Assembly: GCA_017883235.1 (NCBI GenBank)
Contig: JADGNY010000006.1
Location: forward strand, 1 to 64,000
Length of the DNA stretch: 64,000 bases
From: Thermoanaerobaculia bacterium
Lineage (GTDB): Bacteria; Acidobacteriota; Thermoanaerobaculia; Gp7-AA8
Direction: 5' to 3'
The notes beneath the pieces were generated by a model, which was not told the DNA's origin, ran no database searches, and worked only from the letters and a program-made list of their open reading frames with translations. Below are positions 10,411 through 47,165 of the stretch, one piece after another; position 1 is the first letter of the stretch; every line of letters starts with the position of its first letter. The position numbers and the translations under genes were made by a program.

Positions 10411-10898
10411 GAAGCAGTTGACTCGTTCCCAGAGTCAGTTACTCGTTCCCGGAGGCTGTTAACGGCCTCCGGGAGGCGGTTAAACTGCCTCTCGGAGGCA
10501 GTTAATACGCTCCTGAAGGCAGTTAACACGCTCCCGGAGGCAGTTGAACTGCCTCTCGGAGGCAGTTAACACGCTCCTGGAGGCAGTTAACACGCTCCCG
10601 AAGGCAGTTGAACTGCCTCTCGGAGGCAGTTAACACGCTCCTGGAGGCAGTTAACACGCTCCCGAAGGCAGTTGAACTGCCTCTCGGAGGCAGTTAATAC
10701 GCTCCTGGAGGCAGTTAACACGCTCCCGGAGGCAGTTGAACTGCCTCTCAGAGGCAGTTAATACGCTCCTGGAGGCAATTAACACGCTCCCGGAGGCAGT
10801 TGAACTGCCTCTCGGAGGCAGTTAATACACTCCTGGAGGCAGTTAACACGCTCCCGAAGGCAGTTGACGGACTCCGGGAGGCAGTTTGACTGCCTCCA
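10411..10898. repeat. 21-bp-period tandem array 1 (64-bp higher-order unit)
   Basis: Monomers of 21, 21 and 22 bp built on GGAGGCAGTTAACACGCTCC alternate in a fixed order. The palindromic third monomer (GAGGCAGTTGAACTGCCTC) recurs at 10479, 10543, 10607, 10671, 10735, 10799 and 10863, exactly 64 bp apart. The ends of the array are degenerate and the middle is nearly identical, as expected from unequal exchange. It fills most of the gap between the STN gene and the next CDS and carries no gene. Confidence 0.9.
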
Positions 10899-10901
10899 GC
10901 G

Positions 10902-10930
10902 GCGCGATAGCGGCGTCGTAACCTCCAATC
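10902..10930. repeat. Right inverted repeat bounding array 1
   Basis: GCGCGATAGCGGCGTCGTAA followed by CCTCCAATC, the inverted partner of 10332-10361. The stretch after it (10940-10975) belongs to the GGCGAGACGCC family also seen at 47612-47640 and 49185-49450. Confidence 0.7.
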
Positions 10931-11015
10931 CTCCAGAAGCGCGGGGGCGAGACGCCAGCGCTCCGTTCGGTAGGCTTCGCCGCCGCGCTTGCGCGCAACG
11001 AACGTTGCACGCTCA

Positions 11016-11918
11016 TCACGGCTCCGAGGTCAGCATCTCCCTTGCCCGCACCTCGGTGGTCAACGAGGGCGCGTCCGGTCCTTTGGGATGGGTGATGCCG
11101 GTGAGCGTCGTCACTGTGACGCGGCTCCATCGGGCCGGGATGTCGAGCGTGACTTCGATGGTCGACGTCACCGCCGCGTCGGCGGGGGTGTCGAAGACGA
11201 GCGCGCCGATGCGGTCGACGGAGCGTACGAACGACAGCTCGATGATGGCCACCGGATGGCCGGCACGCTGTTCGATCGTGCGAAGCGTGGCCCGGGCCGG
11301 GATGGTCTTCACACCGTGGCCGAGCGAGTCGTAGCAATCGGCGAGCTGCGAGGCCGGAACGGTCCACGATGCGCCGACGACCAGCGGATAGTTGGCGATG
11401 CAGAGATTGGTCGCCTCCACGCGGAGCGATCGCTGCGCGAGCTCGACCAGTCCCATCCGCTCATCGTCGTCGAGCGGCTTGCCGTCGCCCGACGTGACGT
11501 CGATGTTCTTCCCCTTCACCACGAACTGCAGCGTGCGTCCGTTCATGGCGCCGAATTCGCTGGCGTTCTCATCGCCGTGGAGCACGCGGCCGTAGACGCG
11601 GCGCGAATGCACGCCTGCCGCATCGCGCGTGAGCGTCGTGTCGGTGTACTCCTCGCGGTCCATCTGCGAGATGCGCTTGTTCGAGAGCTCTTTCCCATCG
11701 ACGGCGCGGACGATGCTCGTTCCGCTGATCTGCAATTCGGCCGCGCCATGCACGGCCGTTCCTACGGGAGGGTTGATGATCGGAGCAATGCGAACCGTGT
11801 CGACGGCGAAGGCGGAGGATGCCAGTCCCAGCAGCGCGGCTGCCAGCAGGATTCTGGAGTAGCCAGCACAGACAAGAGTGTCTGTGCCACATTGGTCCTG
11901 CTTTGCCGGCACAATCAT
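11016..11918 (-). CDS. Exported protein of unknown function
   Basis: 300 aa. A hydrophobic segment (ILLAAALLGLASSAFA) after a 22-residue polar start looks like a signal peptide. The mature part is a mixed beta-rich domain without enzyme motifs that I can recognise. The ATG at 11918 overlaps the stop of the thiolase gene (TGATG), so the two are probably co-translated. The first codons lie in a palindromic repeat (CACAGACA/TGTCTGTG at 11867-11886), which encodes the CGTDTLVCAG part of the long n-region. Loss of the original start by repeat insertion is therefore possible. Confidence 0.65.
   Translation of the reverse strand: MIVPAKQDQCGTDTLVCAGYSRILLAAALLGLASSAFAVDTVRIAPIINPPVGTAVHGAAELQISGTSIVRAVDGKELSNKRISQMDREEYTDTTLTRDAAGVHSRRVYGRVLHGDENASEFGAMNGRTLQFVVKGKNIDVTSGDGKPLDDDERMGLVELAQRSLRVEATNLCIANYPLVVGASWTVPASQLADCYDSLGHGVKTIPARATLRTIEQRAGHPVAIIELSFVRSVDRIGALVFDTPADAAVTSTIEVTLDIPARWSRVTVTTLTGITHPKGPDAPSLTTEVRAREMLTSEP
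11867..11886. repeat. Short hairpin repeat CACAGACA-AGAG-TGTCTGTG
   Basis: A perfect 8-bp stem with a 4-nt loop lies inside the 5' coding end of the exported protein gene. It has the form of a REP-type hairpin. Only one copy is present in this window. Confidence 0.5.
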
Positions 11919-13087
11919 CAAGCCAGGCTCTCGACGATGATGGCGATGCCCTGTCCGCCACCGATGCATGCCGAGGCCAGACCGTAGCGCTTCCGTCGGC
12001 GGCGCAGCTCGTAGAGCAGGGTGATGACGAGGCGCGTTCCGGAGGCCGCCAGCGGATGGCCGAGGGCGATCGCTCCGCCGTTGACGTTCAGCTTCTCCAT
12101 GTCGACGCCGAGCTCCTTCGATACGGCCAGGATCTGGCCGGCGAAGGCTTCGTTGATCTCGATCAGATCGATGTCGGGGAGCGACATGCCTGCTTTCTTC
12201 AGCGCGATCCTGGTCGACGGCACGGGCCCGATGCCCATGATGTCGGGATCACAGCCGGCGATGCCCCACGAGACGATGCGTCCGAGCGGCTTCTTGTTCT
12301 TCGCGTTGTCCGCCGAGGTGACCACGACCATGGCCGCGCCGTCGACGATGCCGCTGGCGTTGCCGGCGGTGACGAAGCCGTCTTTGGCAAAGGCCGGTTT
12401 CAGCTTCGCCAGCCCTTCCATCGTCGTGTCGGGGCGCAGGTGATCGTCGGCGGTGATCTGCTCGCCCTTGCGGCCGACCGGCACGACCACGATCTCGTCC
12501 TGCAGGCGTCCCGCGCTCGCGGCATCGGCGGCGCACTTCTGGCTGCGCAGGGCGAACTGGTCCTGCTCCTGGCGCGAGATGTTGTACTTCCGCGCCAGGT
12601 TGTCGGACGTCTGCGCCATGTACAGGCCGACGTAGCTGTCGAGGAGAGCCACCATCAGCGAGTCTTCGAGGGCTCCCTGGCCGAGTTTGAGCCCCTTGCG
12701 CGCGCCGCGGATGACGTGCGGCGCCTGCGACATGTTCTCCATGCCGCCGGCGAGGATGGTGGTGGCCTCATCGAGCTGGATCTGCTCGGCGGCGCTGATG
12801 ATCGACTGGATGCCGGAGCCGCAGAGGCGGTTCAGGGTGAGCGCCGGAACCTCTTTGGGCACGCCGGCCTTGAGTCCGACATGACGGGCGCCGTAGATGG
12901 CATCGCCCGATGTCTGCAAGGCGTTGCCGACGATGACGTGATTCACTTCCTCCGGCGCGACGCCGCTGCGCGAGAGTGCTTCCTTCGCGGCGATGACGCC
13001 GAGGTCGATGGCGGTGATGTCGCTGAAGGAGCCGTTGTATTCGGCCATCGGCGTGCGTGCCCCGTCGAGGATGACGATGTCTTTCAT
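11918..13087 (-). CDS. Acetyl-CoA acetyltransferase (thiolase)
   Basis: 389 aa, the usual thiolase length. It condenses two acetyl-CoA or cleaves 3-ketoacyl-CoA. All catalytic elements are present: acyl-accepting Cys89 (LNRLCGSG), His344 (GGAIALGHPLAASG) and Cys374 (ACIGGGQG). The fold starts with ILDGARTPMAEYNGSF. An arginine-rich turn (ELRRRRKRYG) precedes the last motif. It leads a two-gene unit with the exported protein downstream. It could serve fatty-acid, branched-chain or polyhydroxyalkanoate metabolism; the context does not decide. Confidence 0.95.
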   Translation of the reverse strand: MKDIVILDGARTPMAEYNGSFSDITAIDLGVIAAKEALSRSGVAPEEVNHVIVGNALQTSGDAIYGARHVGLKAGVPKEVPALTLNRLCGSGIQSIISAAEQIQLDEATTILAGGMENMSQAPHVIRGARKGLKLGQGALEDSLMVALLDSYVGLYMAQTSDNLARKYNISRQEQDQFALRSQKCAADAASAGRLQDEIVVVPVGRKGEQITADDHLRPDTTMEGLAKLKPAFAKDGFVTAGNASGIVDGAAMVVVTSADNAKNKKPLGRIVSWGIAGCDPDIMGIGPVPSTRIALKKAGMSLPDIDLIEINEAFAGQILAVSKELGVDMEKLNVNGGAIALGHPLAASGTRLVITLLYELRRRRKRYGLASACIGGGQGIAIIVESLA

Positions 13088-13101
13088 GAGCTCTCCTGTG
13101 G

Positions 13102-13241
13102 GAAAGCAGAAGGCAGAAGGCAGAAAGATGAAGGCTGAGGGATCAATTGCTGCGATCCCTTACTATGCCTTCATCCTTCATCCTTCATCCTTCATCCTTC
13201 CGCCTTCTGCCTTCTGCCTTCTGCTTTCTGCTTTCTGCTTT
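13102..13241. repeat. Imperfect palindrome, GGCAGAAGGCAG family, copy 1
   Basis: GAAAGCAGAAGGCAGAAGG on the left is mirrored by CCTTCTGCCTTCTGCTTTC on the right; the centre contains ATGAAGG/CCTTCAT words. It fills the whole gap between the S9 peptidase stop and the thiolase start. A second copy is at 40705-40783. Confidence 0.85.
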
Positions 13242-15383
13242 TCAAAAGCCTTTCGGCAACGTCATGCCGAGGTTCTTCACGAGGAAGGCCATCTGATCGG
13301 TGGTTTCCTCGATGATCTTCCCGGTCGGTTTGCCGCCGCCGTGTCCGGCCCGGGTCTCGATGCGGATCAGCACCGGCGCGGGGCCGGCCTGTGCTTCCTG
13401 GATGGACGCGGCGAACTTGAAACTGTGTCCCGGCACGACGCGGTCATCCGTGTCGGCCGTGGTGATGAGCGTGGCCGGGTACTTCGTTCCCGGCTTGATG
13501 TTGTGGTACGGCGAGTAGGCATAGAGGGCCTTGAACTCCTCGGGATTCGCGGACGAGCCGTAGTCGTCGACCCAGTAACGGCCGGCGGTGAACTGATTGA
13601 AACGGAGCATGTCCATGACGCCGACCGCGGGCAGCGTCGCGCCGAAGAGGTCCGGACGCTGCGTCAGCACCGCGCCGACGAGCAAGCCGCCGTTGCTTGC
13701 CCCCTGCACGGCCAGCTTGGCGGGCTTCGTGTAGCCGTTCTTCGTCAGATACTCGGCAGCAGCGATGAAGTCATCGAAGACGTTCTGCTTGTGCAGCTTC
13801 ATCCCCCCTTCGTGCCACGCTTCGCCGTATTCGCCGCCGCCGCGTAGGTTCGCCACCGCGTAGACGCCGCCCATGTTCATCCAGGTGAGGCGCGAGACGG
13901 AGAAGCCGGGAGTCATCGAGATGTCGAATCCGCCGTAGCCGTAGAGGAGGGTCGGGTTGTCGCCGTTGAGCTTGAGTCCCTTCTTGTACGAGATGAACAT
14001 CGGCACCTTGGTGCCGTCCTTGGACGTGTAGAAGACCTGCTTGACGACGTAATCCTCGGGGTTCATCGCCACTTTGGCGCGGAAGAGAAGCTGCTTCTCG
14101 CCGCTGGCGAGGTCGTAGCGATAGACGCTCGGCGGCGTGGCGAAGCTGGAGAAGGTGTAGAAGGTCTCGTTGTCGTCGGAGCGGCCGCTGAAGCCGCCGG
14201 CGCTGCCGATGCCGTCGAGCTCCATGGTGCGGACGAGCTTGCCGCCGGTGTCGAACAGGCGGATCTCGCTGTGCGCGTCGCGGAGGTAGTCGGCGACGAA
14301 ACGATGGCCGATGTAATCGACGCCCTGCAGCTTGGCGTCGCTCTCGGGAACGATCTCTTTCCAGTTCTCGCGGGCCGGGTTGCGGAGATCGATGGCGATG
14401 AGGCGGCCCTTCGGCGCGTTGAGATCGGTTCTAAAGTACAGCACCGGCCCGTCGTTGCCGACGAACGAGTAGTCGTTCTCGATCTTGTCGACGACCGTGA
14501 CCGGCATGGCGTACGGGTCCTGAAGATCTTTGACGTGGACCTGATTCTTCGCCGCGGTCCCGGAGGAGGTGCCGATGATCAGGTAGCGTCCGCCCTCGGT
14601 GACCTCGGCGCCGTGATTCCACTCCGGCTGCGCGGGGTCGTAGTAAACGACGACGTCGTCGGACTGAGGCGTGCCGAGCCGATGGTAGTAAACCTTCTGG
14701 TCGCGGTTGAGGCTCTGGTACGCCTTCCCTGCCTCAACGGCCGGGAAGCGCGAGTAGAAAAAGCCCTTGTCGTCTTTCGTCCATGAGATGCCGGAGAACT
14801 TGACCCACTTGATCTCGTCGGGGAGCTGCTGTCCGCCGGCCACATCGACCACTCGGATGATTTCCCAGTCCGATCCGGCCTCGGCCACCTGATACGCGGC
14901 GTACTTGGCGTCGTCGCTGATGGCCAGACCGCCGAGCGCCACGGTGCCGTCCTTCGACCAGCCGTTCGGATCGAGCAGCACGCGCGGCGTGTCGCCCCAC
15001 TTGTCGACCGTGTAGACGACAAATTGGTTCTGCAGGCCGTTGTTCTTCGAGAAGAAGTAGCGGCCGCCGCGCTTGAAGGGCGTGGAGTATTTCTCGTAGT
15101 TCCAGAGCGTGGTGAGCTGCTTGCGGATCGGCTCACGCGAGGGGATGGCGCCGAGGTAATCGAAGGTGATCTTGTTCTCGGCCGTAACCCAGTCGGCGAC
15201 CTCCTTCGAGGTGCGGACGTCGGTTTCCAGCCAGCGATAAGGGTCGGCGACTTTCGTGCCGTGGTAATCGTCGACCTGGTCGACCTTCTTCGTCTTCGGA
15301 TAGTCGATCGGCGCCGCGGATGCAACGAAGGTGACGAGCGCCAGCGCGGCAATCAGGGTGACCGCGAACTTGCGGAGATTCAT
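13242..15383 (-). CDS. Prolyl oligopeptidase family S9A serine peptidase
   Basis: 713 aa. Residues 1-23 are a signal peptide (ending VASAAP), so the enzyme is probably periplasmic. An N-terminal beta-propeller (starting PYRWLE) is followed by the alpha/beta-hydrolase domain with nucleophile GASNGG, the Asp loop TTADTDDRVVPGHSFKF and the His loop RAGHGGGKP. The family hydrolyses short proline-containing peptides after Pro. AAGGAG eight bases upstream fixes the ATG at 15383; the open frame extends further 5' without support. Confidence 0.95.
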   Translation of the reverse strand: MNLRKFAVTLIAALALVTFVASAAPIDYPKTKKVDQVDDYHGTKVADPYRWLETDVRTSKEVADWVTAENKITFDYLGAIPSREPIRKQLTTLWNYEKYSTPFKRGGRYFFSKNNGLQNQFVVYTVDKWGDTPRVLLDPNGWSKDGTVALGGLAISDDAKYAAYQVAEAGSDWEIIRVVDVAGGQQLPDEIKWVKFSGISWTKDDKGFFYSRFPAVEAGKAYQSLNRDQKVYYHRLGTPQSDDVVVYYDPAQPEWNHGAEVTEGGRYLIIGTSSGTAAKNQVHVKDLQDPYAMPVTVVDKIENDYSFVGNDGPVLYFRTDLNAPKGRLIAIDLRNPARENWKEIVPESDAKLQGVDYIGHRFVADYLRDAHSEIRLFDTGGKLVRTMELDGIGSAGGFSGRSDDNETFYTFSSFATPPSVYRYDLASGEKQLLFRAKVAMNPEDYVVKQVFYTSKDGTKVPMFISYKKGLKLNGDNPTLLYGYGGFDISMTPGFSVSRLTWMNMGGVYAVANLRGGGEYGEAWHEGGMKLHKQNVFDDFIAAAEYLTKNGYTKPAKLAVQGASNGGLLVGAVLTQRPDLFGATLPAVGVMDMLRFNQFTAGRYWVDDYGSSANPEEFKALYAYSPYHNIKPGTKYPATLITTADTDDRVVPGHSFKFAASIQEAQAGPAPVLIRIETRAGHGGGKPTGKIIEETTDQMAFLVKNLGMTLPKGF

Positions 15384-15423
15384 CGGATGAGCTCCTTTTG
15401 GTGCGGTGGAAGGTGAGTAGGTC

Positions 15424-15491
15424 AGGTGGATCGGTAGATTAGTAGATTCGTGGCAGTCGAAGAAACGTGATCCTAATCTACTAATCCACTG
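15424..15491. repeat. Imperfect palindrome with GATTAGTAGATT words
   Basis: GATTAGTAGATT (15437-15448) faces AATCTACTAATC (15475-15486), with GTCAG/CTGAC at the outer edges. It covers the 3' end of the downstream protease gene, which ends inside the repeat, so its last residues are repeat-encoded. Confidence 0.7.
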
Positions 15492-16330
15492 ACCGACGGG
15501 TCCACTACTTTCCGCGGTAACAGCAATGCGATGCCGGCAAGTTCCACGACCACGATCCAGACGCTCCCCTCGATGCCGAACATGCCGCCGGTGAGCCATG
15601 GTGAGCCGCGGCCGATCGTCCGCAGGACGGTCGCGCCCGAGACGTAACCGCTGACGTTGTAGCCGAGGATCGGACCGGAGAGAAGGTTCCAGCCGAGGTG
15701 GATCCCGATCGGGAACCAGAGCCGCTCGTAGCGCGCATAGGCCAGGGCAAGCAGGATGCCGGCGAAGAACAGATTGGCCATCGCCAGCAGCGAGACGGCG
15801 TTGTTGCCCGCGTGAAGGGCAGCGAAGACGACGGACGAGAAAAGCACCGCGCCGAGGCGGTGGGTGCGCCAGATTTTCTGGAACGGATAGCCGCGGAAGA
15901 GCAGCTCTTCATGGAAGACCGCCGGCAGAAACACGGCGAGGAGCTCGAACCATGGGAAGCCGTTCCCCGCCACGTGCCGCAGCCGCGTGGTCAGCAGCAC
16001 GAGGCCGTCCGCGGCGCCGATCAGGAGAACGGCGGCGCCGCAGCCGAACAATGTCTCGCGAACGGCAAGAGCCGGCCGAACGAAAAGACCGAGAGGCCAG
16101 AGGCCATGCTCCAGGATGCCGATCGTTCCGATCGTGGCCGCGCAGACGCTGAGCAGGGAGACCCACTGCCCGAAGTAGGCATCGGCGGCCGCGGTGACAT
16201 ATCCCGCGACGAAGAAGGTGGCCAGATAGAGCGCCACGAACAGGCTGAGCGCGGCCACGAGATGCCAGAAGCCGCCCTGGCGGACATCGGGCCGGGTGGA
16301 AAACGTCGCCGCGCCGTATTCGGATTTCAT
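15473..16330 (-). CDS. CPBP family intramembrane metalloprotease (Abi/CAAX-like)
   Basis: 285 aa, multi-spanning. The CPBP motifs are in order: EELLFRGYPF (EExxxR, motif 1), FAALH (motif 2 His) and GIHLGWN (HxxxN, motif 3). Homologues range from type II CAAX prenyl endopeptidases to bacteriocin-immunity proteases; the substrate is unknown. Start choice is uncertain: the ATG at 16330 gives a compact N-terminus, while the frame is open to an ATG at 16372; neither has a clear Shine-Dalgarno. It lies head-to-head with the HAD phosphatase gene. Confidence 0.85.
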   Translation of the reverse strand: MKSEYGAATFSTRPDVRQGGFWHLVAALSLFVALYLATFFVAGYVTAAADAYFGQWVSLLSVCAATIGTIGILEHGLWPLGLFVRPALAVRETLFGCGAAVLLIGAADGLVLLTTRLRHVAGNGFPWFELLAVFLPAVFHEELLFRGYPFQKIWRTHRLGAVLFSSVVFAALHAGNNAVSLLAMANLFFAGILLALAYARYERLWFPIGIHLGWNLLSGPILGYNVSGYVSGATVLRTIGRGSPWLTGGMFGIEGSVWIVVVELAGIALLLPRKVVDPSVSGLVD

Positions 16331-16429
16331 CCCCGCACATGATGACGCAGAGAGTCGCGATTTAGTTTGCATTCATGAAGTTACACGTGCCGAGGCGTAT
16401 TGGCGATGGTATAAAACAAACAGGACTGA

Positions 16430-17140
16430 TTGTCGTCCACCCCCTTTATGCTCTTCATAATCGACTTCGATGGAACCGTCGCTCCGGCAGACACGGTGGA
16501 CGCCCTTCTCGAGCAATTCGCCGATCCGGAATGGCGGAGGATCGAACTGGAATGGGTCGCGGGGCGGATCAACTCCCGGGAGTGTATGGCGGCACAACTG
16601 GCTCTCGTGGCGGCCGAACGCCCCGTTCTCGAGAGTTTTCTTCGTTCCGTACCGATCGATCCGGCCTTTGCGGCGTTCGTTCGCCACGCAACGACCTTCG
16701 CCGATCTTGCCATCGTCAGCGATGGCCTCGATTACCCGATCCGGCAGGCATTGCAGGGACTGCGCACCCCGCCAATCCCGGTCTTCGCAAACCGCCTCAG
16801 CTTCCGGCCCGGCGGCCTCGAGCTCTCGTTCCCGTATGCCGATGCGGCCTGCAGCGTGAAGAGCGGCCTCTGCAAGTGCGCCGTGACGCGCGCCGTCGAC
16901 GCCGGACGGGGGCTGACGACCGTCCTGATCGGCGACGGCCGGTCTGATCAGTGTATCGCCCGCCGCGCCGATTACGTCTTCGCGAAGGGTTCTTTGATCC
17001 GATTCTGCGAAACCGAGCAGATCCCGTACATACCATTCGAATCATTCAGTGACGTATTAGCCATTGTGAAGGGGTGGAACATACGTCAACCCGGCGATCA
17101 ACGAATTGAGGAGAAGTCATGTCCCTTGGCAGTTTCCTAG
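16430..17140 (+). CDS. HAD-family phosphatase (PSP/MtnX-like)
   Basis: 236 aa. Motif I is DFDGT (Asp12 nucleophile, Asp14), motif II is the IVSDG segment and motif III/IV is LIGDGRSDQC followed by a KGSL loop, as in phosphoserine-phosphatase/MtnX-like HAD enzymes. It dephosphorylates a small metabolite that cannot be named from sequence. TTG at 16430 with AGGA upstream is the likely start; ATG 16448 is an alternative. It is the first gene of the ACP-centred cluster and overlaps the next gene by 22 bp. Confidence 0.8.
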   Translation: MSSTPFMLFIIDFDGTVAPADTVDALLEQFADPEWRRIELEWVAGRINSRECMAAQLALVAAERPVLESFLRSVPIDPAFAAFVRHATTFADLAIVSDGLDYPIRQALQGLRTPPIPVFANRLSFRPGGLELSFPYADAACSVKSGLCKCAVTRAVDAGRGLTTVLIGDGRSDQCIARRADYVFAKGSLIRFCETEQIPYIPFESFSDVLAIVKGWNIRQPGDQRIEEKSCPLAVS

Positions 17141-18540: not shown

Positions 18541-18543
18541 TCG

Positions 18544-19413: not shown

Positions 19414-19432
19414 GCCGGAAATAGGAAGAATC

Positions 19433-19690
19433 ATGGCCACCATATTCGAAAGAGTTCAGACGATCGCGGCAAAGAAGTATTCTCTGGATCCGGCAACGAT
19501 CACCCCGGAGTCGACGCTGGAGAGTCTCGGGCTCGATTCACTCGACCTGATCGAGCTCCTGTTCGACGTGGAAGACGAGTTTCAGATTCGCGTTCCGCAG
19601 GAAGGCGGCTCGGGTCTGAAGACGGCTACGATCGCCGATATCGTCGAAAGCATCCGGAAGCTCGTCCCCGAGGAAATGCCGGCCACGTGA
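19433..19690 (+). CDS. Acyl carrier protein
   Basis: 85 aa. The phosphopantetheine attachment site is LGLDSLDLIELLFDVEDEF with Ser36, and the acidic helix II/III pattern is typical of discrete ACPs. No fatty-acid synthesis gene is near, so this is a dedicated carrier rather than the housekeeping AcpP. It lies between a hydrolase and a pair of small transporters. No ligase that would load it is encoded in this window. Confidence 0.93.
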   Translation: MATIFERVQTIAAKKYSLDPATITPESTLESLGLDSLDLIELLFDVEDEFQIRVPQEGGSGLKTATIADIVESIRKLVPEEMPAT

Positions 19691-19694
19691 GTTC

Positions 19695-21647: not shown

Positions 21648-21659
21648 CCGCATTTCTCG

Positions 21660-23857: not shown

Positions 23858-23893
23858 GGTGGTCGGCCTGAGCGCGAATCTTAGTACACGCTG

Positions 23894-23925: not shown

Positions 23926-23950
23926 CAGGCGAACAGCAATCGTCGCGTTA

Positions 23951-31935: not shown

Positions 31936-32390
31936 ACGCTCTTACCGTGGCTCTTACCATGGCATGAGCGCGCGCTCCGTTTTGATCCTCGCGTGCTTCG
32001 TTTCGATCCTCGCGTGCTTCGTTTCGATCCTCGCGTGCTTCGTTTCGATCCTCGCGTGCTTTGTTTTGATCCTCGCGTGCTTTGTTTTGATGACCGTGTG
32101 CTTTGTTTTGACGCTTCCGCTCTTACCATGGTGAGAGTGCGCGCTTCGTTTTGACCCTCGCGTGCTTCATTTCGATGCTCGCGAGCTTCGTTTTGATGCT
32201 CGCGCGCTTCATTTCGATGTTCTCGTCCCTCGTTTTGATGCTCGCGAGCTCTGTTTTGAAGCTCGCGCTCTTACCATGGAATGAGCGCCCACTTCCTTTT
32301 CGAATCTCGCTCCTTCGGTGCAAGCATCTCTTGTTTCGTTTCGCTGCTCGTGTGCTTCGTTTCGAACCTCGCTTCTTTCGGGACCAGGCG
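31936..32390. repeat. 21-bp-period tandem array 2
   Basis: Degenerate units built on CTCGCGTGCTTCGTTTCGAT recur every 21 bp (for example at 31988, 32009, 32030, 32051, 32072). A second interspersed word, GCTCTTACCATGG, followed by TGAG and GCGC, marks block starts near 31939, 32119 and 32268. The array occupies the whole 500-bp gap between the BMP lipoprotein and its ATPase. Because 21 is a multiple of three, heptapeptide-repeat ORFs appear on both strands; I do not count them as genes. Confidence 0.85.
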
Positions 32391-32430
32391 CAAAGCCAAG
32401 CGTAGCTTCTACCTACTACACTGAATCCAG

Positions 32431-33792: not shown

Positions 33793-34802
33793 GCCGTCTG
33801 TTTCGCCGACTCCGACCCCCGACACCCGACTCCCGGCTCCCCCGCATCGCCATCGCCATCGGCGCCGCCCTTCTCTCTCTCGTCCTTCTCGCCCTCTCCG
33901 GCATCGCCTTCGGCCACGCGCCCGGCGAGCTTCTTTCGATCCTGATCAGCGGCTCGGTCGGATCGAAGTTCGCGCTGGAAGGGACGCTTCTGAAATCCGT
34001 ACCGCTGCTCCTCACCGGCCTCTCGGTTGCCATCGCCTTCCGAGCCGGGGTCTGGAACATCGGAGGCGAGGGGCAGTTCCTGGCGGGTGCGCTCGGCGCG
34101 TTTCTCGGTGCGCGATACGGGATGGCCGCTGCATTGGCGGCATCGCTGATCGCCGGCGCGCTATGGGCGTCGATCGCCACGGCCATGCGGTTGTGGCGCA
34201 ACGCCCCCGAGGTGCTGACGACGATTCTTCTCAACTTCATCGCCATTCACCTCCTTGGCTACGCCGTCAACGGACCGCTGCAGGAAGCGAGCGGGAAGTA
34301 TCCGCAGAGCGACGTCGTCGCCGCGTCGCTGCCGGCGATCGGTTCGAGCGAGCTGCACGCCGGCATCGTCATCGCTGTCGTGGCCGCCATCGGAGCGTGG
34401 TTTCTGTTGTATCGAACGGCGGAGGGATTGCGGCTGCGCGCATCGGGATTCAATCGCTCCGCGGCGAAATGGGCGGGCGTCAATGTCGATGCTCAGCTCG
34501 TGCGCGCCATGGCTATCTCCGGCTCGATGGCCGGCCTGGCCGGGGGCATCGAGCTGCTCGGGGTCACGCATCGCCTCTTCGAGCGCTTCGCCGCCGGCTA
34601 CGGCTACGCCGGCATCGCCGTGGCACTCCTGGCGCAGCTCCACCCGCTCGGAACGCTGGCGTCGGCATTCTTCTTCGGTGCGTTGACGACTGGCGCGGGC
34701 GAATTGCAGAGGACGGCCGGGATTTCGTCGACCGTGGCGACGTTCGGCCAGGCGATCGTGATCCTGGCGATGATCGCGCTGACGAGGCGCAGGAACGCAT
34801 GA
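33789..34802 (+). CDS. BMP-type ABC importer permease 1
   Basis: 337 aa, about nine membrane helices, BPD_transp_2 family. Key segments: GVWNIGGEGQFLAGALGAFLGA and AGLRLRASGFNRSAAKWAGVNV (the EAA-like cytoplasmic loop). ATGA overlap with the ATPase gene. Codons 7-19 (RLRPPTPDSRLPR) come from the low-complexity word CGACTCCGACCCCCGACACC, a repeat type also found intergenically in bacteria, so the N-terminus may be a repeat addition. Confidence 0.92.
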   Translation: MSRLFRRLRPPTPDSRLPRIAIAIGAALLSLVLLALSGIAFGHAPGELLSILISGSVGSKFALEGTLLKSVPLLLTGLSVAIAFRAGVWNIGGEGQFLAGALGAFLGARYGMAAALAASLIAGALWASIATAMRLWRNAPEVLTTILLNFIAIHLLGYAVNGPLQEASGKYPQSDVVAASLPAIGSSELHAGIVIAVVAAIGAWFLLYRTAEGLRLRASGFNRSAAKWAGVNVDAQLVRAMAISGSMAGLAGGIELLGVTHRLFERFAAGYGYAGIAVALLAQLHPLGTLASAFFFGALTTGAGELQRTAGISSTVATFGQAIVILAMIALTRRRNA

Positions 34803-35644: not shown

Positions 35645-35656
35645 ATAGGAACGACG

Positions 35657-35733
35657 AAATGTTGAATGTTCAATGTTGAATGGCCCGGGGTTCATTCAAC
35701 ATTCGACATTGAACACTCAACATTCAACATTCG
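35657..35733. repeat. Imperfect palindrome, TTCAACATTCAACATT family
   Basis: GTTGAATGTTCAATGTTGAA faces TTGAACACTCAACATTCAAC around GCCCGGGG. AT-rich in a GC-rich genome. It lies between the convergent permease and biotin carboxylase genes and could act as a bidirectional terminator. Confidence 0.75.
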
Positions 35734-35738
35734 CTTTC

Positions 35739-37214: not shown

Positions 37215-37227
37215 CGAGCGCCGCTTC

Positions 37228-38001: not shown

Positions 38002-38047
38002 GGAGAGGGGATTGTATGCGGGGTGGGATTGCTCCCCACCCCGGCAA

Positions 38048-40513: not shown

Positions 40514-40611
40514 GTTCTGGATCTGCCTCCGTTAGTTATTTGAGCAACGGAACGTCCCGGCGACGCCGTGCATTGCAACGCCCCGAGGCGTTACGGTCTG
40601 TTCACATCAAA

Positions 40612-40698
40612 TGGTGCCCGAGGTCGGACTCGAACCGACATGAGGGTTTACCTCGGCAGATTTTGAGTCTGCTGCGTCTGCCATTTCGCCACTCGGGC
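40612..40698 (-). tRNA. tRNA-Leu (CAA anticodon)
   Basis: On the minus strand GCCCGAG...CTCGGGC forms the acceptor stem with A discriminator and encoded CCA; the anticodon loop is CTCAAAA (CAA, reads UUG), with a long variable arm (class II) and a TTCGAGT T-loop. The 40575-40592 hairpin AACGCC-CCGA-GGCGTT follows it. Confidence 0.95.
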
Positions 40699-40746
40699 AT
40701 ACCAAAGGCAGAAAGCAGAAGGCAGAAGGCAGAAGGACTTATCCTT

Positions 40747-42018
<1,272 letters not shown>

Positions 42019-42065
42019 CGCTGACGAATACTAGCAAGGGTGGAGAAGTTTCGAGCGGCGGACCA

Positions 42066-42088
42066 GAAAAAGCCTCCCGGAAGAGGCT
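42066..42088 (-). terminator. Rho-independent terminator of the TrlF locus
   Basis: On the minus strand AGCCTC-TTCCGG-GAGGCT is followed by TTTTTC. It lies 19 bp after the stop of the AlbA/Schlafen-type gene and marks the end of that operon. Confidence 0.75.
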
Positions 42089-42106
42089 GGGAGCCTCCGG
42101 TCCGAG

Positions 42107-43387
42107 TTAATCACTCTGAATCTCCGCGCTTGCTGTTGCGGCAAAGATTGTGAGACGCAGTTCCGCATCGTCGACAGAGACGTACTCGGGCCGATGGCCT
42201 GAAAGCTGTTCGCTCCGCTGAAGGATGATCGTCACCCCTTCGCCGCGCCGATCCATCATCGTTCCTCGTGATGTGTGTATCCACTCGACGTTGTCCGGAA
42301 TCACACACTTCGCGAGAAGACTGGTGATCGCTTCGTTGCGAGCCGCCTGCCGATACGGCAGACTGCCGACATCCATCGTGTTCGGCAGCGAGCCTGGCGA
42401 GAAGAGCTCGATGCGGTTGCTGAACATCCGCAGCCTCACCTTCGAGCCATACATCGAGTAGTCGCGATGCGCAACAGCGTTCACGACGGCTTCGAAAACA
42501 GCACCCAGGTCGTACTGCGGCACATCTGATCTGCCAACGCGCTTCGTTGCTGATGTCAGCATGTTGCGATATACAAACCGGCACGCATCGACGATCTGCT
42601 GATCAAGCGGCCCGGTAATATCGGATGCGTCAAGCTGGTAGGGATCGACTCGAGCATCGTCTATCGTTTCGCCACGGTACGCAACAGCTTGAATGAAAGC
42701 ATTCGGAAGCAATCGTTCCGGAGCTTTGCAGCCGAGAAGAACTCCCGCGACCGTTGGACGAAACACGCCCTCCGTATCTTTTCGCGCCATCCCGACTTTC
42801 TGAAGAAAAGTGGCGTCATCGTCCGAGGTTCGATCAGTTCGAAACCGGTGATATAGCGCTTCGTCGAGGTCAGTCATGTCCGAGCTGCGGACGATCTCCT
42901 CGTCGAACCGGATCATGTGGCTCTGGTTCCGTTGCTGAAACAGCCGATTCAGCAATTCCGACGGCATGTCACGCTTGGAGCTACCGAAACGATAGAAGTA
43001 GCCGCCAGCGCTTTTGTGCACGAACAAACCCGGTTCGATCGTGACCTTAAGCACTGGCTCGATCGTTCCCCTGGTTGATGGCAGGGTAATCTTCTCGACT
43101 GTAGCGGCCAGCGGCGGCCGAATCGAGTCATGCAGCACATCGCGCACGAACGTCTCCACTGAGTCCAGACGGTCGATGGGAATTCCTACAATCTCCTTCG
43201 ACTCGTCCTCAACGCCCAGGAGACAGACACCGCCCTTGGCATTCGCGAAGGCCGCCAGCTCATCCGAGAGTTCATCGCGTCCCGGTCCCACAATTTTCCT
43301 GCCACTGAAGCGAACCTCCTTTAACTCAAGGAAGCTGTCTTCACCCAGTCGGATTTTTTCCAGGAGTTCGGCAGGTATGTCAAACAC
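42107..43387 (-). CDS. AlbA/Schlafen-type putative DNA-binding protein
   Basis: 426 aa. The N-terminal AlbA_2 (Schlafen AAA_4) domain has EDSFLELKEVRFSG and LAAFANAKGGVCLLGVEDE; the C-terminal part has the HATPase_c_4-like AVVNAVAHRDYSMYGSKVRL and ELFSPGSLP. Such proteins accompany phage-defence and stress loci as nucleic-acid-sensing or effector parts. GTG 43387, preceded by GGAGG, overlaps the stop of the TrlF gene (GTGTTTGA), so the pair is co-translated. Confidence 0.8.
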   Translation of the reverse strand: MFDIPAELLEKIRLGEDSFLELKEVRFSGRKIVGPGRDELSDELAAFANAKGGVCLLGVEDESKEIVGIPIDRLDSVETFVRDVLHDSIRPPLAATVEKITLPSTRGTIEPVLKVTIEPGLFVHKSAGGYFYRFGSSKRDMPSELLNRLFQQRNQSHMIRFDEEIVRSSDMTDLDEALYHRFRTDRTSDDDATFLQKVGMARKDTEGVFRPTVAGVLLGCKAPERLLPNAFIQAVAYRGETIDDARVDPYQLDASDITGPLDQQIVDACRFVYRNMLTSATKRVGRSDVPQYDLGAVFEAVVNAVAHRDYSMYGSKVRLRMFSNRIELFSPGSLPNTMDVGSLPYRQAARNEAITSLLAKCVIPDNVEWIHTSRGTMMDRRGEGVTIILQRSEQLSGHRPEYVSVDDAELRLTIFAATASAEIQSD

Positions 43388-46130
43388 CGCGACCTCCGTC
43401 GAGGCGTTCGAAACGCCTTTTGAATGCTTCCCGACCACCTTCCATAACTCTGAAGACGTCTTCGCGAATGTCCGGGTCCTGCAAACATCCCGAGTTCGCC
43501 ACAACGCACTGGCCGCCTTTGAAATCCATGACGAAGACCAGCTCGGCAAAACCATTCACGACAACATTCGGGTTGTGGGTCACGACGATTACCTGACGCC
43601 GCTTTTTACTCTGTCGCAGTTGCTGAACAATGAGGCTGTAGATGACCTGGTTGTCGAGAGCGTCTTCCGGCTGATCGAGCACAAGGGGTTCGTCGCCATA
43701 CGCCAGAAAGAACGCGAGCACAGCCGCAGAACGTTGTCCGGCCGAACCCTGCGACATGGGTTCGAAGTCTTTCCCGTCGCTCTTCTTGCTATATTCGATT
43801 CGCACCCCGTCTTCAGGAGCCCACAGCGCAATGCGGTCCATAAGTTCTGGCCTCCTCTCGCCCTCCCTGGTGACGAAATTTCGAAAGTGGCCTCCCAACT
43901 CGCCGCTTTCGACGCGGCGCTGGAACCGGCGCAGACGCTCGCTGACTTGTTTACATCGCTCATTCGGATCGGACGCCGCCTCGCGGAACAGGTCGACGAC
44001 TAGATCGTTAATATTGCTGGCAAACACCACGTCGTTCACGCCAATGAGCTCCCGGAACGAGCGTTCAGCGGCCTCTGCATTTCCACCATATGGCTCGACA
44101 CTGATCTGAACGTAGCTGTTACCGCTTAGAGTTCCGTCTACCCACTGCTGGCGTTTTTCCCAGAGGCGCTGTCTTAGATCGGAGATGGCCGCCAGGACTT
44201 CGTCACTCTCTATCGCCACTTCGGCTGCACGCTCTTGCGCACTGGATAGGGTCTTCAGCTCGGTTTCGAGACGCTGACGTTCCTGAACGAGGATGCCGAA
44301 TTTATCCGGGTCGGCCGCTCCATCGCTGCGTAGAGCATTAACGACTATGTCGTAACGCGAGCGAGACTCTTCAACCTCCGGACGGATTGTCCCTTCGATC
44401 GCTTCTGTCGTGAATCTCTGCTCGGCGTTTTCGATACCTCCCGCAGAAATCTCCAAAGAGGCTGCGGCCGATTCAATCGCACGGCGCAACGTCTCGAACT
44501 CCGCCAGAACCTTTCCTTCCACATTGTCGCTGCTATCAAAGAGGTCCTGAGGGATATCGGCGATCGCCAACTCCTGCGCCAGAGCACGAATCCGCGCTGC
44601 CTTGGCTCGCGCGTCATCGCGCGCTCTCTCAAGCTCACGGATCTGCCTGTTCCGTCGCTGGTGCTCCCTAAGCACGGTCGAGTGCTGCGACTGCTCAAGT
44701 AACGCAAGCGTGTGCTGAACGTCTTCGAGCCGTGCCCGAACGGTGTCGAAGTTCTGAGCCTTCTGGCTAAGCTCGCGGCCCCTTGCGCGAAGGGTCATGA
44801 ATCGGGATTGCTCCTCCTCAATGCGCACCATCAGCGAGCCGGCACCTGAAGCGTCGTCGATGCGTTCCAGCAGCGCCGTGGGGTCGCGCGTGAACTCGAG
44901 GATCTGGCCCTGACTGAAGATCTGTACCGGGAATCGGCGTACGGCCTGTGTTTGCGCTGTCACCCAGTCGTCCGCGAGCTGCTCCTCCACGTGCGTTTGC
45001 TTCTCAGTCCATCGGATTTGAAATCTTTTCCCCGTATGTCGGAACACGAGTCGCGCCGTGGTCTTCTCAGTCAAGCCGCCCGGCTCGTGCCGATTGCCAG
45101 GGCTGTTAAGGAACCGGTCGAAATCCTGGCGGGGCTCGGCGCCCTCCGAAAGGCGTCGAATCTCATCCTCGCGATGTAGCGCCGCTCGTAGAAGGTGAAT
45201 CAACGTGGACTTACCCGTACCACGCCCTCCGACAATTGCGTTCAGCGACGAGTTGAACTGAAGCCTCGCGGGGGCGCCACGACCCATCACCTTTGCATCA
45301 TCCACTTCGATCGACTCGATCCAGTCGTTAGGAGTCGTGTTCGGATCAAAGCCAGGCCTCACGGCATCACTGCGCAGTACGGAAGCGCCATCGCCATCGA
45401 TGAGCGCAAGTCGGAGCCCTTCGAGTGTCGGCTCACACATTTTGATCCAGGTGAAGTGGGAGCCCGGACACTTCGGTCCCGTCGATCCGTCAAGGTGGTG
45501 GCAATCGGACCCAAGGACCTGTGGAAGTGGACGACTAGGGTCTCGAAGAGCCGACTTTAACGTTGCACCTGTATCACAGACCTCGATCGCATCAATCCTT
45601 TCAGCCGCGATGAGCAACCCCAGTGACTCTCCGGCAACGTTCGCTCCGGACGGGCCGTCTACGTGTGCCAAGACCGTAAGGCCGTTTTGTTTTCGAACCA
45701 CCTCAGCCACATCAGCGGTCGATTTCGCGACTGGTGTCCCTTCCCCTTTCTTGCCTTGGAGGTCAACCGCTCCCAGGAAACCATCGATGTGAGCTTTCGA
45801 AGTTCCGGGCTTGAAGATCGTCAGCATGTGACAGGCAGCGTTCGAGGTGACCTCCGCGCCGGGGAAGAGCGTGATCGGGCGAAAGCCGGCTGGAGCCTCC
45901 CTTCGTAGCTCATCAAGCGCGACACTCAACTTGTCGATCCACTCGCCCGAGTTGTGATCCGTCACCGCAACGCAATCGATTCTCGCCCGCATGAAGGCGA
46001 GAAGCCACTCCCGTGGTGACACTTGACACTCGACACCCTGGTTCCGACCCTTGCCGAAGTCGCTCGAAGCGGGAGTGTGCGTATGGAAATCGAATCTCCA
46101 CCATCGAGCGCCCCGGCACGTGTCAGACAC
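43380..46130 (-). CDS. TrlF-type PHP-domain ATPase
   Basis: 916 aa. Residues 1-250 are a PHP metal-dependent phosphoesterase: FDFHTHTPASSD, AVTDHNSG, PGAEVTSN, VLAHVDGPSG and SDCHHLDG supply the metal ligands. Then an SMC/RecF-type ATPase: Walker A VGGRGTGKST, coiled-coil stretches (QHTLALLEQSQHS to LSSAQERAAE), signature SQGSAGQRSA, Walker B LVLDQPEDALDN and VTHNPNV. A nuclease-coupled ATPase fits phage defence. GTG start, overlapping the small upstream gene. Confidence 0.85.
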   Translation of the reverse strand: MSDTCRGARWWRFDFHTHTPASSDFGKGRNQGVECQVSPREWLLAFMRARIDCVAVTDHNSGEWIDKLSVALDELRREAPAGFRPITLFPGAEVTSNAACHMLTIFKPGTSKAHIDGFLGAVDLQGKKGEGTPVAKSTADVAEVVRKQNGLTVLAHVDGPSGANVAGESLGLLIAAERIDAIEVCDTGATLKSALRDPSRPLPQVLGSDCHHLDGSTGPKCPGSHFTWIKMCEPTLEGLRLALIDGDGASVLRSDAVRPGFDPNTTPNDWIESIEVDDAKVMGRGAPARLQFNSSLNAIVGGRGTGKSTLIHLLRAALHREDEIRRLSEGAEPRQDFDRFLNSPGNRHEPGGLTEKTTARLVFRHTGKRFQIRWTEKQTHVEEQLADDWVTAQTQAVRRFPVQIFSQGQILEFTRDPTALLERIDDASGAGSLMVRIEEEQSRFMTLRARGRELSQKAQNFDTVRARLEDVQHTLALLEQSQHSTVLREHQRRNRQIRELERARDDARAKAARIRALAQELAIADIPQDLFDSSDNVEGKVLAEFETLRRAIESAAASLEISAGGIENAEQRFTTEAIEGTIRPEVEESRSRYDIVVNALRSDGAADPDKFGILVQERQRLETELKTLSSAQERAAEVAIESDEVLAAISDLRQRLWEKRQQWVDGTLSGNSYVQISVEPYGGNAEAAERSFRELIGVNDVVFASNINDLVVDLFREAASDPNERCKQVSERLRRFQRRVESGELGGHFRNFVTREGERRPELMDRIALWAPEDGVRIEYSKKSDGKDFEPMSQGSAGQRSAAVLAFFLAYGDEPLVLDQPEDALDNQVIYSLIVQQLRQSKKRRQVIVVTHNPNVVVNGFAELVFVMDFKGGQCVVANSGCLQDPDIREDVFRVMEGGREAFKRRFERLDGGRGV

Positions 46131-46469
46131 TCCTCACCTCATCCTCTCGACACATCGGCATGACGGGGAAGATGTTGATGCGGACGCGTCGTCGATGTTG
46201 GGATCTCCCATCCCGAAAACTACGGACGGAGCGCCTACCGGCGGAAGAACGAGTCCTACGATGGTTCCGCTGGACAATCGTCAGGAACTCCTCGCGAGGA
46301 TAACCGGCAAGAGGGAGCCCCTTTTTGATCTCTTCCCAACCATTCTGAACTCCCCGATGCCCTCTAGCAACTGAAGAACTCTGTCCCGACCAACGATCTG
46401 CGCAAGCGTAATCCAGCGCCGAGTGAAAGGTGTCTTGATCGGGTCCACGTCGGGATTATACCCATCCAT
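46123..46469 (-). pseudogene. Small frameshifted gene upstream of the TrlF gene
   Basis: The first part (62 codons, MDGYNPDVDPIKTPFTRRW, then TLAQIVGRDRVLQLLEGIGEF) stops at 46281. The +1 frame continues coding-like (REEFLTIVQRNH ... RVRINIFPVMPMCREDEV) and ends with a TGA inside GTGTCTGA, overlapping the TrlF start. Third codon positions in 46135-46190 are nearly all G/C only in that frame. A one-base indel near 46300 would give a ~115-aa protein of unknown function. Confidence 0.45.
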
Positions 46470-46506
46470 ATCAGACCCGACAGTTGATCGAGAACTTCAC
46501 GCTTTC

Positions 46507-46571
46507 TGGTGAATGTTGATCTGGCGCGAGAGCGCTCCAGCGAGGACTCCGACGAACATCTCGAAGGGATG
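46507..46571 (-). pseudogene. Txe/YoeB toxin relic A
   Basis: About 22 codons read PFEMFVGVLAGALSRQINIHQ, matching the conserved PPFEKLVGDLxGAxSRRINIxHRLVY segment of Txe/YoeB mRNA-cleaving toxins. Both ends are lost. A second relic lies at 47399-47560. Confidence 0.5.
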
Positions 46572-46816
46572 GGAGATTGGAAGGGGTCATCGCGGACGAG
46601 GCTTCGCCTCTGACCGACGATCGTGAGCGAGCTGCCATGCAACGCGGCCGACCGCCGGGAGCGAAACGGGCGTCGCTAGCCTTCCTCCCCCTCCCCCCGT
46701 TCCGGCCTCGAGTCCGTTGCTCTGGGGAATACACGAGGCGCATCGTGGCACCTGCTGGCCGTTTTTCGGCCCAGTCCTTTCCAAGATCAGGTGCTTTCGA
46801 GTCCAGATTTGTCTCC

Positions 46817-47165
46817 GTCAACAAAAATGTGTTGACGCCAACAAAACACCTGTTGACCGCAACAAGAGGTGTGTTGGCGGCAACACCCGATTTGTTGGCG
46901 GCAACATCCAACTTGTTGACGTCAACTCCGAGCCCGTTGACGGCAACAAACGAAGTGTTGGCGGCAACACCCAGGTTGTTGACGGCAACTCCGCGGGTGT
47001 GACGGCAACAAAGACTTTGTTGACGTCAACTCCGAACTTGTTGACGGCAACCCGGCGCGAGTTGACGCCAACTCGGCAGGTGTTTGCGCCAACTCGGCAG
47101 GTGTTTGCGCCAACTCGAGTCTTGTTGGCGGCAACTCGATGTTTGTTGCCGGCAACTCGAAACGG
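46817..47165. repeat. 21-bp-period tandem array 3 with palindromic core
   Basis: Sixteen units with core GTTGRCGNCAAC (often the perfect palindrome GTTGACGTCAAC) plus a variable 9-bp spacer begin at 46831, 46852, 46873 and so on to 47145, strictly every 21 bp apart from one 1-bp deletion at 46999. Spacers differ between most units; two consecutive units share CTCGGCAGG. The region 46470-47642 otherwise holds only toxin relics and a GGCGAGACGCC repeat. Confidence 0.92.

Follow-up and report, generated by a model that had tools for sequence, protein, structure and literature searches.

Intergenic tandem arrays of constant 21-bp period and variable sequence, and a linked family of small basic proteins, in a Thermoanaerobaculia genome

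Arrays in the window

The window analysed here (64,000 nucleotides; positions 1 to 64,000 of contig JADGNY010000006.1 of a Thermoanaerobaculia bacterium) contains three tandem arrays, the first of which is flanked by an inverted repeat.

10408..10905, no strand assigned: array 1 (family f0), 64-bp super-unit of 21+21+22 bp, GGAGGCAGTTAAC-type; solo
31936..32400, no strand assigned: array 2 (family f1), 21-bp units, CTCGCGTGCTTCGTTTTGATC-type; solo
46817..47165, no strand assigned: array 3 (family f2), 21-bp units; solo copy
10332..10352, + strand: inverted repeat, left copy, flanking array 1, GATTGGACGTTACGACGCCGC
10910..10930, - strand: inverted repeat, right copy, flanking array 1

A first-pass annotation had described three arrays with a basic unit of 21 bp (21+21+22 in array 1), and TRF recovered all of them: array 1 at 10408-10886 with a period of 64 (21+21+22) and 92% matches, and arrays 2 and 3 at 31950-32279 and 46819-47160, respectively, both with a period of 21 and multiples thereof. 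Lag identity was maximal at 64 for array 1, at 21 for array 2 and at 42/63 for array 3. Array 2 is broken up by copies of GCTCTTACCATGG, while the units of array 3 retain the core GTTGNCGNCAAC with a variable spacer. The inverted word GATTGGA...GCCGC borders some array-1 copies; since other loci carry it too, whether they have an array or not, it is no general array end.

The consensus units are unrelated to one another, as that annotation had it, with the correction that each array belongs to a dispersed family, having 35 places in its own genome for array 1 (27 of the 35 with E no worse than 1e-13), and 23 and 5 for arrays 2 and 3, respectively. A mechanism amplifying 21-bp steps, also proposed at the outset, may have produced these dispersed copies. 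No partner gene for array 1 was found in the window. Gene-linked relatives of the three arrays lie elsewhere in the genome, namely at C97:2177-2639 (90% identical to array 1, 1.0 kb upstream of gene L212), C43:17040-17318 (71% identical to array 2, upstream of gene L214) and C236:36778-37102 (71% identical to array 3, upstream of gene L208). Descent of the solo copies from the gene-linked array found no support: in families 1 and 3 another copy is more central.

One period with many sequences

Using thresholds of at least 100 bp and a score of at least 80, 34 arrays were discovered in 656,555 bp of the window's own genome, a sample which takes in the window itself and counts 4 kb twice. Arrays are also places where the contigs of this assembly end. 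The fundamental period was 21 in 17 arrays, 22 in one, 42 in one and 43 in two, giving 21 of 34 arrays at 21/22/42/43 bp with unrelated units; every other period occurred at most twice. Eighteen blind stretches (211,502 bp, all on contigs that the window arrays did not match) held seven of the counted arrays, or 33 per Mb. The scan of unit lengths in this sample bears out a common period without common sequence, with a peak at 21 bp in place of an even spread, and the period count rules out chance as its origin. These are not CRISPR arrays: the 21-bp units run head to tail and unique spacers are absent.

A filter removed arrays whose lags were strong at 24, 30 or 58 bp, and two loci, L145 in G012 (period 18) and L156 in G016 (period 6), were dropped before the family count as coding-like with a weak 21-bp signal. 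Splitting at 15/21 identical positions yielded 33 array families across three genomes. The intergenic location first claimed for the window arrays proved general, in that none of 36 arrays from the three genomes fell inside a gene predicted with our own gene caller. The surrounding genes were convergent in 10 cases, tandem in 18 and divergent in six, with two arrays at stretch ends; for the 36 arrays overall, gene-linked ones included, there is no excess in divergent (promoter) regions and the distribution matches the expectation from intergenic length.

Linkage to a protein family

A family of small proteins, unmatched in the libraries consulted, is encoded tens of times in the genome, and the majority of the copies looked at lie downstream of a 21-bp array. 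Among the 30 best loci of the window's own genome, 27 were testable and 22 of these have a 21-bp array upstream; leaving out the three seed genes the count is 19/24 (p 3e-20). In G002 an upstream array was found at 11 of 14 family loci, a fifteenth being cut by a contig end, and in G009 at 12 of 15, as against 18/329 upstream and 25/329 downstream of other genes taken as controls. All six family genes inside the stretches sampled from the own genome, three of them seeds, have an upstream array. The only repeats seen downstream of family genes were a heptamer array at L215 and a repeat within the coding tail of L248. Loci with no array within 1.5 kb number five in the own genome and three each in G002 and G009. 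The gap between array and family gene is approximately 80-1200 bp, and at six loci another gene lies between the two.

Over 47 genes, protein similarity correlates with array similarity (Mantel rho 0.182, matched by none of 1000 permutations); a correlation of this kind would also arise from shared descent alone. A strict protein-array code is unsupported because some close proteins have unrelated arrays, e.g. L240 and L244, which are 84% identical with an array similarity of 0.40.

Arrays and family co-occur across genomes. The window's own genome (G000) has 57 family places, fragments counted, and 32 arrays/Mb; G002 has 66 family matches and 31 arrays/Mb, and G009 has 28 and 30 arrays/Mb. 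Sampled stretches of genomes with few or no family genes contained no arrays; among them are 252 kb from the sister species G001 (8 family matches) and 80 kb from G016 (2 family matches). No family match at all was obtained in 54 of 60 genomes.

The proteins possess a predicted helical core and a basic Pro/Ala-rich tail (median pI 9.2), and their genes show dN/dS values of 0.12-0.56 in 13 pairs. None of 32 members matched Pfam or PHROG at E 0.01, and no DNA-binding, nuclease, recombinase, transposase, Rep or toxin-family domain was recognised among them; NCBIfam was searched with three members only. Against the PDB and viral models, Foldseek found no match with E below 1, and a second look at 16 chains with VIA-align returned Z-scores up to 4.0. 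By tblastn, one member had no match in phages and another none in plasmids. A PADLOC match to DruF (1/32 members, E 0.008) was treated as noise. Two other candidate partners were set aside on their distribution across genomes. RAYT-type transposases (PF01797) number 9 in G000, 8 in G001, 15 in G002, 1 in G009 and 14 in G010, and do not track the arrays. Reverse transcriptases (PF00078) occur in the three array-bearing genomes and also in G010, G012, G026 and G035, in whose sampled stretches there were no arrays.

Constraint on the step and the unit

In 72 arrays we counted 824 steps of 21 bp, 198 of 22 bp, 21 of 20 bp and 9 of 23 bp. Step errors per substitution were computed without the 26 arrays (of 72) that are rich in 22-bp steps; they came to 0.012 for gene-linked and 0.0235 for solo arrays, compared to 0.039-0.045 in simulations that used the local indel rate (0.19). 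The most constrained arrays are the gene-linked ones. The indel test depends on its baseline: when the smaller value of 7 indels to 77 substitutions is used, the solo arrays are approximately neutral.

Dyad symmetry reached p<=0.05 in 10 of 33 families (combined p 8e-8). It was not significant in the other 23, the window's three among them; taken singly, arrays 1, 2 and 3 gave p values of 0.59, 0.07 and 0.16, respectively. Variable columns cluster within the unit (combined p 2e-5 over 26 families, p<=0.05 in six). The substitution spectrum is ordinary, with 43% transitions in arrays against 39% in other repeats; adenine-targeted or other special mutagenesis was rejected on this ground.

The first-pass annotation had proposed selection on helical phasing, possibly through a protein that reads one face of the DNA. 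In favour are the depletion of indels, the great excess of 22-bp over 20- and 23-bp steps, the clustering of conserved columns, the enrichment of dyads and the linked protein family; against it, none of the window arrays has a singly significant dyad.

At the RNA level, 12 of 33 families folded better than shuffled units. Covariation is weak, with 130 of 294 double changes compensatory, against 1232 single changes, counts which include some arrays twice (overlapping loci of the same array). RNA structure or a cruciform was rejected as a general rule on these folding results and on double changes without clear upkeep of pairing. Rfam gave no match in 10 loci.

Comparison with known systems

Plasmid-origin iterons are sites spaced at about two helical turns, close to the gene that encodes the protein binding them. 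The arrays described here differ in forming tens of paralogous pairs together with dispersed solo arrays, and in the lack of a recognised Rep domain in 32 members. REP elements, which are associated with RAYT transposases, are dispersed short intergenic palindromes; here the transposase counts given above do not follow the arrays. Phasin PhaF and the histone H1-like AlgP join a helical body to a tail that is basic and rich in Ala, Pro and Lys, and a similar architecture is predicted for the family proteins; unlike them, PhaF and AlgP are not known to be tied to repeats, and the 32 members lack a Pfam match.

The first-pass annotation knew of no bacterial system with these properties. In this it was mistaken: constant-size, variable-sequence bacterial satellites have been described by Subirana and Messeguer, in whose accounts, as drawn on here, they are non-coding and species-specific, with a period of 20-23 nt and several unrelated families per genome (PMC8161180, PMC6749651, PMC8625621). 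These accounts already suggest a role for two helical turns and for a protein that polymerises, and the part of the 2021 paper (PMC8161180) on a 52-nt class reports no evidence for an interacting Cas-like protein. The present arrays are likewise non-coding, share one period within a single genome although their sequences are unrelated, and are species-specific (arrays 1 and 2 checked in 40 genomes). They differ in the linked, co-amplified protein family, the depletion of indels and the 21/22 alternation. They are also acidobacterial, while the portions of the published accounts used here do not name Acidobacteria; published genomes with arrays of 20-21 nt include Bacillus simplex and Paenibacillus.

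Type III toxin-antitoxin systems (ToxIN, CptIN, AbiQ) similarly place a tandem array ahead of the gene for a small protein. Their repeats, as given in the relevant part of one account (PMC5086642), measure 34-36 nt in the ToxIN family against 21 bp here, and number 2.8 to 5.5 in three examples against approximately 5 to 35. Here, moreover, no terminator was found, none of 32 members matched ToxN, CptN or TenpN, and solo copies are spread genome-wide.

Proposed system and alternatives

We propose a two-part, paralogous system of which the arrays form one half: each protein would bind its own array and control its own gene, a reading to which we give about an even chance. Protein-array binding, which we infer, would involve the helical core and basic tail; one contact with the unit of the protein's own array every two helical turns would bring adjoining molecules onto the same face of the DNA, where they could line up cooperatively. 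With the array upstream of the gene this might provide autoregulation. Solo arrays would be further sites, serving perhaps to compact or anchor the nucleoid or to titrate the protein. Selection would act on the 21-22 bp step and on part of the unit, whose sequence would shift along with the protein.

An arrangement resembling an RNA antitoxin, in which RNA repeats transcribed from the array would bind the protein and hold it in check, as ToxI does with ToxN, appears improbable. The order of repeat array and small protein gene is the same, and the ToxIN family, in the account cited for it, also keeps repeat length while its sequence diverges (PMC5086642). However, stems of at least 7 occurred at 14/59 family loci (one gene counted twice) against 35/158 control genes, and a T-tailed stem was present in 1/59 family loci against 1/158 controls (within 170 bp upstream), i.e. 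no terminator at the sensitivity used. The gap between array and gene, occupied by another gene in six loci, the restriction of fold gain to 12/33 families, the weak covariation and the helical model, with no toxin-family match in 32 members, also speak against it, and genome-wide solo copies are foreign to such a scheme.

We consider it similarly unlikely that the arrays are selfish satellites, with gene-array cassettes spreading parasitic solo arrays and a protein that aids copying or insertion and serves no host function. Consistent with this are the presence of array 1 in only 1/40 genomes and array 2 in 2/40, the lack of array 2 at the equivalent site in two relatives (approximately 100 bp there against 507 bp in the window genome), the similar copies at many places, and the occurrence of the protein family in 3 of 396 sampled genomes of the phylum. 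Against it stand the failure to recognise nuclease, recombinase or transposase domains in 32 members, and the strongest constraint falling on gene-linked arrays. Common terminal repeats were also rejected, flanking inverted repeats exceeding the top of the null range in 4/61 arrays, all f0.

Neutral birth, in which slippage or template switching yields 21-bp tandem duplications whose period is without function, is very unlikely. It would account for a constant period with inconstant sequence, and the ordinary substitution spectrum and the near-neutrality of solo arrays under the smaller indel baseline agree with it. It is already strained by the linkage to family genes in the own genome, G002 and G009, and leaves unexplained why one gene family is involved, why arrays are absent from the 252 kb sampled in G001 and why gene-linked arrays are depleted of indels. 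Protein-coding heptad repeats, suggested by 21 bp being seven codons and by an open frame in 14/21 own arrays, are refuted as a general account and scarcely credible, as none of 36 arrays lies in a predicted gene, 7/21 own arrays lack an open frame in all six readings and steps of 22 bp disrupt the frame.

Returning to the two-part system, a bolder and tentative version, which probably goes too far, holds that some fifty parallel protein-satellite pairs exist in this one genome, each protein recognising its own 21-bp array; the pairs would duplicate, diverge and gain new array sequences while solo arrays spread as a family-specific, chromatin-like network. If true, this would be the bacterial equivalent of satellite DNA and the cognate proteins that bind it, and the pairs would amount to a natural library of orthogonal protein-DNA specificities.

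What is new is the first candidate partner for bacterial constant-length, variable-sequence satellites, which were already in print with neither a known partner nor a known function. Array function becomes directly testable with a gene family that adjoins the arrays, varies together with them between species, and is rare or missing where the sampled DNA has no arrays. Should binding be confirmed, the dozens of diverged protein-array pairs of a single genome would reveal how a protein family alters its DNA specificity at a fixed two-turn step.

Array period and genomic context

Using TRF for the boundaries and lag identity for the step, the three arrays of the window were resolved as follows:

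Array 1: 10408-10886, step 21+21+22 bp
Array 2: 31950-32279, step 21 bp
Array 3: 46819-47160, step 21 bp

This confirms the common 21-bp step, and the 21+21+22 step of array 1, reported by the first-pass annotation. The even spread of unit lengths that it named as a refutation did not appear in a 656,555 bp sample of the same genome (window included; array cut-offs of length 100 and score 80), where 17 of 34 arrays have a fundamental period of 21, one has 22, one 42 and two 43, and any other period occurs at most twice. The genome comprises 6.92 Mb in 246 contigs, and its closest named relatives are Acidobacteriota/Thermoanaerobaculia MAGs. Eighteen stretches from contigs with no match to the window arrays held seven arrays in 211,502 bp. 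The arrays are intergenic, as had been stated: none of 36 checked for context lies inside a gene predicted by our own codon-score caller, which was used in place of annotation. Their neighbors are convergent in 10 cases, tandem in 18 and divergent in 6, with 2 at stretch ends, which matches the expectation from intergenic length. A GCTCTTACCATGG-type word recurs both within array 2 and at its edges (31938-31962, 32119-32131, 32267-32279).

The suggestion that no such bacterial system had been described does not stand. PMC8161180 describes species-special families of repeats, 20–21 nt or 52 nt long, that hold their size while their sequence varies. It finds 20–23 nt repeats across many bacterial groups, proposes a polymerising protein or small RNAs, remarks on two helical turns, and states that evidence is lacking for any Cas-like protein acting with the 52-nt class. 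A full-text literature search, with most subscription papers outside it, returned nothing on such repeats in Acidobacteria/Thermoanaerobaculia, on noncoding satellites or on a cognate protein; other queries did retrieve the satellite literature.

Dispersal among genomes

BLASTN against the own genome revealed that the window arrays belong to dispersed families: array 1 gave 62 matches at 35 places (with only short, weak matches at the last eight), array 2 gave 37 at 23 places, and array 3 gave 8 at 5 places. Among 40 genomes, array 1 was confined to its own and array 2 was shared only with G002, a member of the same genus. The site of array 2 is approximately 507 bp in the window and 100 bp in two relatives of identical gene order, which points to a gain in the window lineage or a loss in both relatives. 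By circular identity, 33 array families are represented in the samples of the own genome, G002 and G009 (same bacterial family) taken together with the arrays at array matches.

The density of 21-type arrays was 32 per Mb in the own genome, 31 per Mb in G002 (ten arrays, three of them in stretches chosen for an array match; leaving these stretches out gives seven in 262 kb) and 30 per Mb in G009 (99 kb only). The 252 kb sampled from G001 (same genus) contained no such array, where about 8 would be expected at 31 per Mb, and neither did the samples of G012 (212 kb), G010 (180 kb), G016, G028 and G035 (80 kb apiece) and G026 (27 kb), these zero counts being for sampled stretches rather than whole genomes. 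Contigs of the own assembly (for example C9, C25, C33, C158, C168, C171) often break off within a 21-bp array, next to one, or immediately ahead of a gene of the family described below; the assembly therefore probably undercounts arrays and separates family genes from their arrays.

Other repeats were also observed. Heptamer tandem arrays (13102-13238, 33806-33841, 35658-35732, 40705-40784), often inverted pairs between genes, would form long hairpins; the pair at 35658-35732 recurs in another stretch (L049, 8546-8637), and most members of the bacterial family that were sampled have heptamer arrays, among them G001, G012, G010 and G016, whose sampled stretches had no 21-bp arrays. The word GATTGGACGTTACGACGCCGC, possibly a MITE- or REP-like element, is present at 10332-10352, 10910-10930 and 61900-61920 and in stretches L007, L011, L014, L015, L091 and L102; inverted pairs flank some array-1 copies, and single copies lie elsewhere. 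Another dispersed repeat consists of long-period (100–187 bp) intergenic arrays built on palindromic CATCCTGAC...GTCAGGATCTCCGGTG (L079, 3201-3600; L105, 3878-4065; L106, 34-379).

A gene family downstream of the arrays

Comparison of 49 near-array genes with 351 others yielded one small cluster, all three members of which lie beside arrays, each of a different family (p 0.0017, uncorrected for the number of clusters). Since these three genes seeded the profile, their own arrays count as no evidence. The seed profile A2 gave 52 matches in the own genome; adding a second profile brings the total to 57 separate places, a figure that includes fragments and pieces at contig ends. The family was found in six of 60 genomes, namely the own, G002 (50 scored matches, 66 with the wider profile), G009 (22, then 28), G001 (8), G016 (2) and, marginally, G020. 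A draw of 396 genomes from the phylum, with at most eight candidates scored per genome listed, gave three matching genomes; G001 and G016 were not among the matches listed.

A 21-bp array lies within 1.5 kb upstream in 22 of the 27 testable loci among the 30 best own loci, three having been set aside with less than 160 bp of upstream sequence. Without the seeds the count is 19 of 24 (binomial p 3e-20 against the upstream rate of other genes). Among 329 other genes in the own sample, an array lies upstream of 18 and downstream of 25 at a distance of up to 1.5 kb. In G002 an array precedes 11 of 15 loci (11 of 14 gives p 4e-12); of the four without, one is truncated where its contig stops, and two belong to a tandem group as additional copies. 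G009 has 12 of 15 (p 3e-13), L256 only at lag 63. In array-poor G001 and G016, a short 21-bp array precedes two of three family genes examined (L229, L233). Downstream, covered for at least 1 kb in 26 of 30 own and 30 of 30 other loci, only two repeats were seen, an array of heptamers at L215 and, at L248, a repeat that is part of a coding tail. All six family genes within own stretches, three seeds and three non-seeds, carry an array; the 21 sampled own arrays divide into 6 gene-linked and 15 solo. Relatives of window arrays 1, 2 and 3 lie upstream of the family genes L212, L214 and L208, respectively.

Layout of family loci

No array within 1.5 kb upstream (own): L211 (array-1 relative 3.4 kb upstream), L213 (broken), L215, L222 (fragment), L224
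Second gene family, 226–241 aa with basic N-terminus, between array and family gene: L216, L217, L218, L220, L223, L225
Gene of one cluster downstream: L200, L210, L214, L228, L229, L230, L233

In the six own loci with an intervening gene the array stands at a fixed 816–843 bp; the four of these genes scanned had no Pfam match at useful score. The remaining own arrays are 83–552 bp upstream, or 1.0 kb (L212). The downstream cluster occurs in seven loci (three own, two G001, one G016, one G009), and all four members scanned are M4 peptidases of the protealysin type, with propeptide. This layout, present in array-poor G001 and G016 too, is perhaps the older form of the locus.

The proteins are mostly 180–265 aa, with AGGAG-type ribosome sites ahead of many of 21 starts inspected and dN/dS of 0.12–0.56 in 13 gene pairs. 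The median pI is 9.2 (range 4.7 to 11.5), and the tails are rich in Pro, Ala and Lys, in some G009 copies resembling histone H1. At a cut-off of 0.01, Pfam and PHROGs gave no match to any of 32 members. AlphaFold modelled L212 (32 sequences; mean pLDDT 81.6, core about 93; pTM 0.53) with six helices, one of them 54 residues long; Foldseek against PDB and viral models returned nothing below E 1, which does not by itself show a new fold.

Constraint on the unit step

Steps over 72 distinct arrays were 21 (824), 22 (198), 20 (21) and 23 (9). Other dispersed intergenic repeats of the own genome, whose matches are mutually non-independent, have an indel-to-substitution ratio of 0.17–0.22 in all bins of identity short of 100%. 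Simulation at this rate through the same pipeline gives a ratio of step errors to substitutions of 0.039–0.045; 0.018 was observed in 46 arrays poor in 22-bp steps (gene-linked 0.012, solo 0.0235). A handful of long-period arrays supply a lower baseline, 7 indels to 77 substitutions with four of the indels at one locus; simulation then gives 0.027–0.036, which leaves solo arrays near neutral. The selection on spacing suggested initially consequently gains support from indel depletion, firmly for gene-linked arrays only. A selfish satellite is a possible alternative, mostly for the solo arrays.

Variable columns are clustered within units: the combined p over 26 families is 2e-5, and 6 of them reach p≤0.05 individually. 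In 10 of 33 families dyads are in excess over shuffled sequence (combined p 8e-8), and the consensus of none of the three window arrays shows such an excess. Base pairing in itself shows no clear conservation: 130 of 294 double changes were compensatory, where a share of one third would give 98, and single changes numbered 1232.

Arrays and proteins as cassettes

Protein identity and array similarity are correlated among 47 genes with arrays (rho 0.182; none of 1000 permutations reached it, maximum 0.152). The share of pairs with array similarity above 0.5 is 2–3% where protein identity is below 50%, and it is 13% at 50–65%, 53% at 65–80% and 75% above 80% (8 pairs). Recognisable units are common to L205/L247, L209/L259 and L203/L249 across species; as a counter-case, L240 and L244 encode 84% identical proteins and have unrelated arrays. 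Since shared descent alone would yield such a correlation, it backs joint inheritance more than recognition.

The array could instead encode an RNA antitoxin to the family protein. Such systems have the same layout (PMC5086642); however, the terminator that helps define them was not found, a T-tailed stem occurring in 1 of 59 family loci. What is shown is that an array and a family gene make up a cassette, and that the two counts climb together across the sampled genomes. Because spacing is kept rather than pairing, the step equals two helical turns, the units resemble a binding site followed by a spacer, and the proteins are mostly basic and end in a tail like that of a histone, we favour the reading that the family protein binds the array.
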